Positions 21,924 through 62,185 of a stretch of DNA of 64,000 nt are shown in pieces (position 1 is the first letter of the stretch; the number at the start of each line of letters is the position of its first letter). Source of the stretch: Promethearchaeota archaeon (lineage in GTDB: Archaea; Asgardarchaeota; Lokiarchaeia; Sigyniarchaeales; SOKP01); the NCBI GenBank assembly GCA_019057865.1, contig JAHLWP010000009.1, positions 1-64,000 of the forward strand, read 5' to 3'. Position numbers and translations under genes: made by a program. A model generated the notes under the pieces. It was not told where the DNA came from, made no database searches, and saw only the letters and a list, made by a program, of their open reading frames with translations.

Positions 21924-24155
21924 TTAAATCCTAAAATAGATTGTTTTTGGAGTAGTTCTTACACAAATTGATTTACTTAAGTCAATTGCAGTTGTCCATA
22001 TATCTTCATCCCAGGTTTTTTCACTTTCTGCAATTTTTAATAACTTTTTTATAGCTTTTATTGTATTTGCGCAGGTTATCTGTTTATTTGTTTTAGATTT
22101 TTCACTTATATAATTCTGAACGCTATTTTTTACTTGTTCTAGCCCAATTTCAATGGGGGATCGTTGTGTAATTGGAGTTATCTTGAATAATTGTGCTTCC
22201 GAGCTATATTCATGCACTGGGGGTTGAATAAATTCAGTTATTTTTGTTTCTGGTGAAGGAATCGTAATTTCAGTGAGTTTAGATAGCTCTTTTAATTTAC
22301 TTCTAATTGTAATAGGGGATAAATTGAGTTTATTTAGAATAAATTCAACATCTTGAAGGGGAGGTTCGATTCTAAAAATATTTTCATAATGTACCATTAA
22401 TGAGATATAAGCTAATTCAAGATCATTTAATTTACTTATTCTACCTAAATGTGGATATAGTTCATTTGGAAGACTGTATCTATGCCGTATGTCTAATTCA
22501 ACATTAGTTATCCAAATGACATAATCTAAGGCTTTCTCTCTTAACAAATCAAATGTTTTATTAATATCTCCTTTTGAAACTTCTTTTCCTTTCCGATACA
22601 TCTTAACTTCTATTCCGACCTTCTTTATATATTCAGAACCTTCATTTCCAAAAAATTCTAAAAAAACATCAGGCTTTTTCTTTGATTCTCCTAAGGGAGG
22701 CTCATGTTTCACATCTGTTAAGTAATTGTAATCAGGTTGAGTGCTTAAAATTTCAAAGAATTTGCATAAAACATTCTCAACCATTGTGGATCGCTGTTTA
22801 TCTTGAATATGACTATCTAAAAGCTTATTCCTAAGTTCTTTTTGTTCGATATAAGAAAGAGTTAAATCATCCCTAGTTCTAAAAGCCCTGAAAGCTTTAA
22901 AGAAAGTATCAACAAGTTCTAGTTCTTTAGTTTTCCTATAACTCTCTATTAATTCATATAGATTTTTTAATGTCTTTCTTAAATCTTGCCCATTATTTTC
23001 ATAAAGATATTTAATACTGTTTTCTCCAAATGGGAATAAGATCTTATCATGTGGAGGACTAAAATTGAATTTATTCCAGAAGTTCAGGATGTATTGAGTT
23101 ATTACCATAATAACAGTATCAGGATCTAAATTAGTAAGGGCGAGAGTTTTTGACCAATAATCTAATTGTTGACGTTGGTCGCCTTGTAGTACATCATCAA
23201 AGTCACTATAAGCGTCTAAAGTGCCTGAAAGAATAATGGTCATAAATTTCTTTTGTCGCAAATTTAAAAGTAATGAAAACAAATTGGAAAATACTTTGTC
23301 TTTTAATCCTGACCCTCCTGCTTCTAAATGGTCAAAAATTACAACAAAACAAGTCTTATTATCAAATGTCCATCTAAACATCTCAATTAATTCGTCAATG
23401 TATTTTGATGCATCATTATCAGTGCTCACATTGAAACCTTTGTATGCATCATTTCCTCTAAAGGCGTTGAGACTTTCCATATATTCTGGATTCTGAACAT
23501 AAGACTTCCAAAAAGTTAATAAGAAGTTTAAATCAACAGGTATAAATCGGTTTAATATCGCTGCGTTTTCGTTGACTAAATCGAAAATTTTCTGATTAAA
23601 ACGAGCATTCTGAGTTTTTTCTTTAATATAATCAAGATTAGAAGTTAATTTTAAAACATCCTCTCCAGAAAACTTATGTAATAATTGCTCTTCAAGTTTA
23701 CCTCCTTTTTCAGTAATGAGTTTTATAACTTTACTAATCGTGCTCATGAGTAGCAAATCTAAAAATTCTACCTTTTCCAATCTTGAAACAATTTGACGGT
23801 AAAATGATTTCATCTTAAAATCTTCAGGTTGCCCACTCGTTTCGAGATATACAATAGGGAGGAGAAATTCTTTACTCAACTCATCTACAGAGTAGCAAAT
23901 TAAGGTAGATTTTCCAATCCCTTGCTTTCCAATTACTCGAAGTAATTTTGGCTCAAAATATTTAATACTATCTTTTATTTCTTCAGATATCTCTTTTATA
24001 TAATCATCTCGGCCAAAACAAAAGAGAGGAGGATTATTATAAAAGTTTATGGCAATTGGAGGTTTTGGAAAGGGATTTAGATTTTCTCTATTAATAATTT
24101 CAGTTTTACACTTCTTTAACCAATCTTTTTGAGTTTTATATCCATCCAATTGCAT
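21924..24155 (-). CDS. AAA+ ATPase with C-terminal PD-(D/E)xK-like region
   Basis: 743 aa. Walker A GKQGIGKST (75-83) and Walker B-like VVIFDHLEA (271-279) mark a STAND/AAA+ type ATPase. Sensor-like LSGTLDAYSDFDD follows. Residues 460-560 contain a helix (MVENVLCKFFEIL), then KKPDVFLEFF (D496) and VGIEVKMYRKG (E516, K518), matching a PD-(D/E)xK nuclease site. This is followed by a helical C-terminus. It is the last gene of a minus-strand cluster nurA-herA-(180 aa)-this gene; the gap to the 180-aa gene is 7 bp. No family name recognised; the nuclease call is motif-based. Confidence 0.65.
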   Translation of the reverse strand: MQLDGYKTQKDWLKKCKTEIINRENLNPFPKPPIAINFYNNPPLFCFGRDDYIKEISEEIKDSIKYFEPKLLRVIGKQGIGKSTLICYSVDELSKEFLLPIVYLETSGQPEDFKMKSFYRQIVSRLEKVEFLDLLLMSTISKVIKLITEKGGKLEEQLLHKFSGEDVLKLTSNLDYIKEKTQNARFNQKIFDLVNENAAILNRFIPVDLNFLLTFWKSYVQNPEYMESLNAFRGNDAYKGFNVSTDNDASKYIDELIEMFRWTFDNKTCFVVIFDHLEAGGSGLKDKVFSNLFSLLLNLRQKKFMTIILSGTLDAYSDFDDVLQGDQRQQLDYWSKTLALTNLDPDTVIMVITQYILNFWNKFNFSPPHDKILFPFGENSIKYLYENNGQDLRKTLKNLYELIESYRKTKELELVDTFFKAFRAFRTRDDLTLSYIEQKELRNKLLDSHIQDKQRSTMVENVLCKFFEILSTQPDYNYLTDVKHEPPLGESKKKPDVFLEFFGNEGSEYIKKVGIEVKMYRKGKEVSKGDINKTFDLLREKALDYVIWITNVELDIRHRYSLPNELYPHLGRISKLNDLELAYISLMVHYENIFRIEPPLQDVEFILNKLNLSPITIRSKLKELSKLTEITIPSPETKITEFIQPPVHEYSSEAQLFKITPITQRSPIEIGLEQVKNSVQNYISEKSKTNKQITCANTIKAIKKLLKIAESEKTWDEDIWTTAIDLSKSICVRTTPKTIYFRI

Positions 24156-24162
24156 AATTTCT

Positions 24163-24705
24163 TTAAATTTTCTTTAATTTAAACCATACATAAGTTTGAC
24201 CATCTTTAACCAAAGGTTCACCTTGAACTATTTTACCAGGCTGTAAATCAACCTTATACTCCATAAACAACTTATACAGCTCATTATGTATTCTTTCTCT
24301 AGACCATGGGATAAAATCTTTGATTTTTTGAGTAAGAGCTGAAATAGAAACAAAATCACCAAATCTTTTTTCAAGAGAGTTATAGGCAGTATTAATTGTT
24401 CTAATAAATTGCTGTTTAGTTATATCTTGAAATTTTTCTTCAGGTTCTGTCTTAAAAACTACATTTTCTAGTTTTGATAGCCTTATTTCAAAATCTTGAA
24501 ATTTATTTAATATTAATTCTAAATCCGAAATTGCACTACTAGATGTAGTAGTTTGGGTTATACTAGTTTTTTTAATTCCTTTTCCTTTTTTTCTCCGTTG
24601 AATTTCCCATTTTCTGAAGTTTGCAGTGATTTTATCTCTCCATATAGCATTCTTTCCAGTTTCTGCTTCAAATTGTAGCATTAATTCTGTCTTTTTAATA
24701 GTCAT
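24163..24705 (-). CDS. Two-domain protein of HerA/NurA cluster, with GKNAIW motif
   Basis: 180 aa, family unknown. Residues 1-40 (FEAETGKNAIWRDKITANFRKW) match a motif found three times in the 421-aa protein at 60920-62185. Residues 40-57 are a basic linker (RRKKGKGIKK), 60-80 may form a coiled coil (LELILNKFQDFEIRLSKLE), and 95-180 look like a winged-helix domain (FVSISALTQKI...RIHNELYKLFMEY...VKDGQTYVWFKL). It is probably a DNA-binding partner of the downstream AAA+/nuclease protein, 7 bp away. Confidence 0.55.
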   Translation of the reverse strand: MTIKKTELMLQFEAETGKNAIWRDKITANFRKWEIQRRKKGKGIKKTSITQTTTSSSAISDLELILNKFQDFEIRLSKLENVVFKTEPEEKFQDITKQQFIRTINTAYNSLEKRFGDFVSISALTQKIKDFIPWSRERIHNELYKLFMEYKVDLQPGKIVQGEPLVKDGQTYVWFKLKKI

Positions 24706-60919: not shown

Positions 60920-62185
60920 TTAGTTGGTTTTCTTTTTTACAAGTTTTTCTAAATAATTCTGAAAACTTTGAGTTAATTTTCCCCTATAATAAGTATTCTT
61001 TCCTGTTTCTTTTTGATATTTTTTAGCTATTTTTCGCTTCCATTCTTGAAAATTTTTTGTCTCCATTCCATTCCATACAGCATTCTTACCGGTTAATGAT
61101 TCAAATGCAAAAGATTCAGAAATGGCTCTTTCTTCTTTTTTAGGTATTGTATTGGAAGTCTTCTTCTTAATAGGGATTTTTTTTTTATTGGATTTAGTTT
61201 TCGGAAGATTTCTCAAGTATTGAGTAAAATTATTCGTAGGTTTTCCTTTATAATAGGCAGTTTTTCCAGTTTCTTTACGATACTTATTGGCAACTTTTAC
61301 TTTCCATTCTTGAAAATTCTTTGTTTCTACTCCATTCCATATAGCATTCTTACCAGTTAAAGTTTCAAATACTCCTACTTCAGAATTTTCTTTATCTTCT
61401 TTTTTAGGAATACTCTTTTTAGATTTTGGTTTAATAGGTGTTTTTTTCTTTTTATCAGTTTTACTTTCTAAAAGATTCTTTAAATATTGGGAAAAATATT
61501 TTGTAGGTTTTCCCTTATAATAAGTAATTTTTCCAGATTCTATTCGATATTTATTTATATTCTTAGCTTTCCAATTTTTAAAAGCTTTAGTTTCAGTTTC
61601 ATTCCAAAAAGCATTTTTATTAGTAAGTTTTTCAAATACAAATACCTCTACATCTTGAAGTATTTTTTCCTCTTTTAATTGCTTTAGGTTATTCTTTATT
61701 TTTCTCTGGTGAGATTTGATTTCTGGTTGTTTTTTATGATTTATAGTTCTTAAAAACTCTGAACAACTTAGTTTTTTTCCTGTACCATTTGTAAAAAAAG
61801 GATCCTCTAAAACATCCATATGAACAGAAAAATCGAAAATTTGGTGATCATTTAAGCTTGGCCCCATATATTTAGCTAAAACAACAATAGTACCATTATT
61901 TTGAGAAATATCAATAAGGTTATTAGAGGTTTGGGTGGATTGATATAAAGATAGATGATTGAAATCATTAATTCTGTCAATACTTTTAATATTTTCTCTA
62001 TTTTTAATTATTGAATTATAATTAGGCTGCTTTTTCCCATTAATTGAAACATCAAGAGCAGTTAATCTATATTCCATATTTTTTTTCAGTGTTTTTTGAA
62101 TCACAAACTTAATGAATTTCTTCACTTGATTCCATTTTGATGTTTCAACTAAACCTATAATTTCTCTTAAGCTTTCCTCAGACAT
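60920..62185 (-). CDS. Protein with three copies of a TGKNAxW-type repeat domain
   Basis: 421 aa, family unknown. Residues 1-175 are an unrelated N-terminal region (VVLAKYMGPSLNDHQIFDFS). Then three copies of a roughly 58-residue domain at 181-238, 270-327 and 359-416 (period 89), each FExLTGKNAIWNGVETKNFQ-EWK-KYRKETGKTAYYKGKPTNNF-QYL, joined by Lys/Pro/Ser linkers. Within each copy the TGK-A-W/Y-T-F-W/YL pattern occurs twice, so six half-repeats. The 180-aa protein at 24163-24705 has one half-repeat. Highly basic, so nucleic-acid binding is plausible. Confidence 0.65.
   Translation of the reverse strand: MSEESLREIIGLVETSKWNQVKKFIKFVIQKTLKKNMEYRLTALDVSINGKKQPNYNSIIKNRENIKSIDRINDFNHLSLYQSTQTSNNLIDISQNNGTIVVLAKYMGPSLNDHQIFDFSVHMDVLEDPFFTNGTGKKLSCSEFLRTINHKKQPEIKSHQRKIKNNLKQLKEEKILQDVEVFVFEKLTNKNAFWNETETKAFKNWKAKNINKYRIESGKITYYKGKPTKYFSQYLKNLLESKTDKKKKTPIKPKSKKSIPKKEDKENSEVGVFETLTGKNAIWNGVETKNFQEWKVKVANKYRKETGKTAYYKGKPTNNFTQYLRNLPKTKSNKKKIPIKKKTSNTIPKKEERAISESFAFESLTGKNAVWNGMETKNFQEWKRKIAKKYQKETGKNTYYRGKLTQSFQNYLEKLVKKKTN

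Follow-up and report, generated by a model that had tools for sequence, protein, structure and literature searches.

Dockerins are short, duplicated modules that stand at the ends of proteins and mark unrelated proteins for one assembly, and nucleic-acid-binding domains of the SAP, HeH, Rho_N and Lsr2 type are likewise short, with two helices and an extended or hairpin loop, and are carried by varied proteins. The WHEP domain of eukaryotic aminoacyl-tRNA synthetases is a further small helical module, of about 50 aa (PMC4072531). Herein we describe a module of ~30 aa, so far known only from Lokiarchaeia, that recalls each of these in part. The likeness to dockerins is an analogy of how the module may work, as its consensus lacks the calcium-binding, EF-hand-like loop and its hosts are not secreted glycosidases. 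Its predicted layout of two helices with a loop between them resembles, in general terms, that of the SAP/HeH/Rho_N/Lsr2-type domains, to which Pfam and Foldseek gave no match. The WHEP likeness is one of manner of use only: both are small helical modules found on translation proteins, also in tandem, whereas the Lokiarchaeial module is ~30 aa long with a predicted hairpin between its helices, has been found in Lokiarchaeia only and has far more varied hosts, with no sequence homology shown between the two. The RNase H1 N-terminal domain (Cauli_VI) compares through a short sub-threshold patch in two module hosts only. The module appears to be previously undescribed, and targeted searches of the openly licensed literature found no description of it.

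The window, i.e., the whole stretch of 64,000 nucleotides of Lokiarchaeial DNA analysed here, encodes the module most prominently in a protein of 421 aa (positions 60920–62185, minus strand, as are all window features given below), which consists of an N-terminal region (residues 1–179; 61649–62185) followed by three tandem double modules with Lys/Pro-rich linkers between them. The N-terminal region has no known family (no Pfam or NCBIfam match), and the whole protein gave no credible match to PDB sequences. The motif FE[KTS]LT[GN]KNA starts at residues 184, 273 and 361, a spacing of 89 and 88, and KYxxExGK, the motif of the second halves, recurs at residues 212, 301 and 389 with the same spacing; each unit of ~60 residues is a tandem of two ~30-aa modules with the consensus LxxqYexETGKxAIWrGKxTkgFxeWlk, and identity to the second unit was 63–66% for the three units. 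With a profile built from other genomes only, and thus free of window sequences, the protein scored 110 bits (E 4e-33), while the best of 4000 shuffles of it reached 14.7 bits. Against profiles equally free of window sequences, five of the six half-units were significant individually: R1a (61562–61642, E 1.8e-3), R2a (61295–61390, E 3.4e-10), R2b (61205–61294, E 4.3e-5), R3a (61031–61120, E 1e-8) and R3b (60941–61030, E 1.2e-6). The exception, R1b (61472–61561), is not significant alone (E 2.1) and was assigned to the second-half type because it occupies the corresponding position in its unit and shares identity with R2b and R3b. Together, the shuffle and half-unit scores show that neither the internal duplication nor the second halves are due to chance, which bears out the first-pass annotation of this DNA, where the protein had been described as three internally duplicated copies with each second half a weaker copy of the first.

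The gene is maintained as a protein under purifying selection, since overall dN/dS stays under 1, at 0.43 in comparison with a close orthologue and 0.18 with one that is more distant. Compared with the orthologue L168, the N-terminal region (0.31) is more conserved than the repeat half (0.49); further orthologues are found in other genomes (L169, L173 and L213). The repeat half is strongly basic, with 62 K+R vs 23 D+E in residues 180–421, and if the module binds nucleic acid as proposed below, the protein would, with its six modules, be a strongly basic, multivalent binder. The original description of the domain as basic therefore holds for this protein. For modules at large it holds only weakly: in windows of 44 aa their mean net charge is ~+2, with values from −4 to +11.

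No known domain was recovered by sequence or by fold. Neither the window protein nor any of 30 module instances had a credible match in Pfam, PHROGs or PDB sequences, NCBIfam gave none with the whole window proteins as queries, and the candidate of a known domain was rejected on the basis of these searches and of structural comparison. AlphaFold2 predicted for the single module a helix (residues 7–16), a short hairpin (ETGKxAIWRGKxT) and a second helix (28–40) at pLDDT 83, from a shallow alignment of 36 rows. For the tandem of 75 residues, helices were predicted at 11–19, 31–48 and 60–73 with two hairpins (pLDDT 86, pTM 0.72; shallow alignment of 18 rows), so that a single long helix, residues 31–48, would bridge the two hairpins. 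Foldseek with these models found no convincing structural neighbour either in the PDB (best E 3.8) or among viral models (best E 1.5), although queries of only 42–75 residues give little power. Across Pfam, PDB sequences and Foldseek, no match to a nucleic-acid-binding domain was found. The first-pass annotation, which had known no family for what it took to be a mobile, repeatable domain, is in agreement with these results.

It could be argued that the module belongs to a known small fold but has diverged so far that profiles miss it, whether of the SAP/HeH/LEM, Rho_N, Lsr2 or WHEP type or the hybrid-binding domain at the N-terminus of RNase H1. The predicted helix–loop–helix does resemble the SAP/HeH type in general terms, and Cauli_VI (PF01693) falls just short of its 21-bit cut-off in two hosts, the ribosomal protein eL13 and the RNA polymerase subunit A' (20.5 and 20.7 bits). 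However, the Cauli_VI match spans only 16–20 of 44 positions and its HMM found nothing among the 26 modules of the window's genome at E ≤ 10, and the 30 members showed no match to the SAP, HeH, Rho_N, LEM or Lsr2 Pfam profiles at the same threshold; the Foldseek result against the PDB adds to this, within its limited power. The RNase H1 N-terminal domain was rejected, with both matches below 21 bits and none in the window's genome, and WHEP-TRS (PF00458) was matched by one of the 30 members at E 0.095, insufficient for an assignment. We consider a missed known fold improbable.

Searching with profiles for further members, a check proposed in the first-pass annotation, returned them in plenty. 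A profile of the half-units detected 26 copies on many contigs of the window's own genome, and 37 of 39 relatives were positive by profile search. Across the phylum, 78 of 228 genomes were positive at E ≤ 1e-4, including all 65 sampled genomes of the window's family (f1), most of families f2 and f4 and one genome of f7. At this threshold the profile found no module in the ~150 genomes elsewhere in the Asgard phylum, which thereby provide an empirical null. When 84,980 species genomes of bacteria and archaea were scanned with a pattern, 37 loci were confirmed, all from Lokiarchaeota/Lokiarchaeia MAGs except for one titled only "archaeon"; the pattern needs the fixed core [EK]ETGK[NKY]AI, so that more divergent members could escape it. 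The seed alignment had seven rows, of which two are consensus-like composites and not observed sequences; they only widened the pattern, and confirmation relied on the real first row. Among IMG/VR viral contigs, scanned by pattern for close matches only, none was confirmed and no phage record was found for the 421-aa protein, and a viral or phage origin was rejected accordingly. The module is thus a mini-domain of ~30 residues that is specific to Lokiarchaeia among the genomes searched.

The module occurs singly or in tandem, usually at the terminus of otherwise unrelated proteins and often behind a Lys/Ala/Pro-rich linker, and also in the form of stand-alone proteins of 44 aa. When the host proteins were clustered with the module masked, 31 groups were obtained, some of which are variants of one another (e.g., the several 44-aa stand-alone proteins). 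The module lay near the N end in 21 groups, near the C end in 11 and inside the protein in 5, with multiple counting possible. Hosts were identified by Pfam and by sequence. Those with a C-end module include RNA polymerase A' (behind a Lys/Ala/Pro-rich tail), eL13 (two copies), a cold-shock-domain protein, an IFT52/ABC_transp_aux-like protein and a membrane protein in which several hydrophobic stretches were recognised by eye. At the N end, the module is found on aIF2-gamma, an ABC ATPase, AAA+ and MoxR-like ATPases, and HisKA-receiver proteins, which form the majority of a 54-sequence group that also includes a few LRR proteins. Further hosts are a SWIM zinc-finger protein, LRR proteins and small Cys-motif or zinc-ribbon proteins, and in very long acidic-repeat proteins the module is internal. 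Averaged across all hosts, the module flanks are near neutral, and basic linkers are therefore not universal.

Two host groups deserve additional description. Adjacent pairs of HisKA-receiver proteins (at 65.7–67.0 kb of contig C75 in genome G000, and in relatives) recur in family f1 and consist of the module, a possible ribbon-helix-helix, HisKA and receiver, apparently without a kinase ATPase domain; the ribbon-helix-helix DNA-binding domain beside the module fell below the cut-off (E 0.014–0.065) and is not claimed. In addition, about ten very long proteins (open frames of ~860–1570 aa) on contigs C83, C77, C23, C69, C49, C80, C48, C4, C9 and C63 of G000 (L017–L032, L255, L256) share one module and a subsequent helical stretch. 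Several have acidic N-terminal repeats, and their C-terminal parts differ, as in a polymorphic family, with weak LAGLIDADG-like, exonuclease-like and winged-helix-like matches.

The presence of the module on the tails of RNA polymerase A' is a clean phylogenetic step across families. In f1 and f2 the A' tail is a long Lys-rich extension (e.g., with repeated KKAPVKKAPV) that has the module at its end, and every f1 or f2 tail that was read to its end carries it, as do the remaining f1 tails examined, with three copies in two f2 genomes; in one other f2 genome (G036) the contig edge falls just after a module-like start. The f3 tail is Lys-rich without the module, those of f4 and f7 are short and without it, and those of f5 and f6, also without it, run into A''-like sequence, possibly with an intein. 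In other Asgard genomes the A' alignment mostly ends with the conserved core, at residue ~210–220 of the 297-residue query, and the few that extend to ~250–275 contain in-frame stops. The window's genome has A' directly before A'' and ribosomal genes, as expected. By eye, the A' of one Lokiarchaeial MAG (L122) contains an intein-like insert of ~500 aa with LAGLIDADG-like features, and the A'–A'' reading frames of G119 and G120 (L294, L297) look intein-bearing.

A domain found on so many proteins might also be a coding mobile DNA element comparable to the Rickettsia palindromic elements, its peptides being by-products of an in-frame DNA repeat with no function at the protein level. One part of the data does look like this: the stand-alone 44-aa gene lies in a block of ~220 bp that includes upstream and downstream non-coding DNA, is 93–99% identical between copies and has unrelated flanks. 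The block was located five times, in four genomes from two genera (L012, L023/L257/L284, L062, L063 and L113; contigs C78 and C36 of G000, and G011, G013 and G146), and gene and block together possibly represent a mini mobile cassette. The fused copies, however, behave differently. Modules of different hosts in the window's genome share 47% protein identity, and codons coincide at identical residues in 0.547 of cases vs 0.518 expected from codon usage, i.e., synonymous similarity is barely above expectation while residues are conserved, which implies that the fused modules are old and constrained as protein and are not recent copies of a DNA repeat. Moreover, they sit at protein ends and not at random sites, and on A' they keep their position from one genus to another. 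A mobile coding repeat was therefore rejected for the fused copies, and we give the idea hardly any credence as a general explanation. Regarding the block itself, some copies contain a possible 9-bp inverted repeat (TATTAGAAA/TTTCTAATA), and one copy is near a probable transposase, judged by sequence only. A diverged stand-alone module gene in another genus lies 79–91 bp downstream of a Rad51-family gene, in the same orientation, at the four loci examined (L142, L143, L145 and L148).

The second module protein of the window, of 180 aa (24163–24705), had been noted to open with the same domain, and it does: a single module spans residues 5–34 (24604–24693; E 1.1e-12 with a profile free of window sequences), with the motif beginning at residue 12. 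Low-complexity sequence comes next, and the C-terminal region matches RNA polymerase delta only below the cut-off (TIGR04567, E 0.013). The gene for an AAA/STAND-like ATPase of 743 aa (21924–24155) lies 7 bp downstream; judged by eye, a PD-(D/E)XK-like stretch may be present in the C-terminal half of this ATPase. The link to HerA/NurA and genome-defence genes that had been proposed for the domain was not upheld. Homologues of the 180-aa protein were found at L066/L253, L137 and L175/L252, and the adjacency to the 743-aa ATPase recurs in G023 (L253) and is absent in L137 and L252. What the homologues have beside them is a Hrq1/MrfA-type helicase (L137, L252) or the AAA ATPase alone (L253), and HerA or NurA was in none of these three retrieved neighbourhoods. 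PADLOC gave no match for the 421-, 180- and 743-aa proteins, and most module copies belong to housekeeping or regulatory proteins; a HerA/NurA or defence link was rejected, as it is unconserved in the homologue neighbourhoods and has no PADLOC support among the module proteins.

What the module does must be judged from its hosts and its composition, which suggest that it probably serves as a small tether, either to nucleic acid or to a partner that the hosts have in common. As a binding module it would tether its host, and the likeliest ligand would be a nucleic acid or nucleoprotein particle, touched by conserved Lys/Arg of the hairpin. This ligand is favoured because of the hosts tied to gene expression (RNA polymerase A', eL13, aIF2-gamma, the cold-shock protein and the zinc-ribbon proteins), the histone-H1-like basic linkers and the high positive charge of the repeat half in the 421-aa protein, and the nucleic-acid binding that the first-pass annotation had raised as a possibility is plausible on these grounds. 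Against it, the module is only mildly basic, basic linkers are not universal, the searches by sequence and fold matched no nucleic-acid-binding domain, and the membrane protein, ABC ATPase, IFT52/ABC_transp_aux-like, LRR and AAA+ hosts have no obvious tie to nucleic acid. The same facts could be read in terms of a protein–protein docking tag, by which one shared Lokiarchaeial hub protein or complex gathers RNA polymerase, ribosome, initiation factor, signalling and membrane proteins, much as dockerins or WHEP domains bring unrelated enzymes together. The functional mixture of hosts, membrane-linked ones included, would fit such a tag, as would the terminal position on flexible linkers, a charge that is near neutral on average, tandem copies as in avidity systems, and the conservation of aromatic and hydrophobic residues. 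On the other hand, no protein emerged as a candidate hub, the distribution of the stand-alone 44-aa copies is patchy, and the H1-like basic linkers of RNA polymerase and the small zinc-ribbon hosts suggest nucleic acid. The present evidence gives no decisive separation of the two: we regard docking to a single hub as a serious possibility that is nevertheless doubtful, and tentatively, at somewhat less than an even chance, read the module as a lineage-specific, promiscuous mini-domain that is likelier to tether its host to nucleic acid or nucleoprotein than to a single hub protein. A more speculative extension, which we think unlikely in this full form, is a Lokiarchaeial docking code, in which the modules on A' (with its H1-like tail), eL13, aIF2-gamma and the regulators would recruit the machineries of transcription and translation to one shared nucleoprotein or scaffold, in functional parallel to the CTD of Pol II, and the mobile 44-aa gene would be the free form of the module and possibly its donor.

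Promiscuous small domains are well known in eukaryotes, and no archaea are closer to eukaryotes than the group that includes the Lokiarchaeia. One ~30-aa module shared by the largest RNA polymerase subunit, a ribosomal protein, an initiation factor and two-component regulators in a single archaeal lineage would be unusual. The module profile annotates dozens of proteins that are now called hypothetical, and structures of RNA polymerase or ribosomes from Lokiarchaeial cultures would have to allow for the module, which offers a defined and easily expressed handle on how the gene-expression machinery of Lokiarchaeia differs from that of other archaea.
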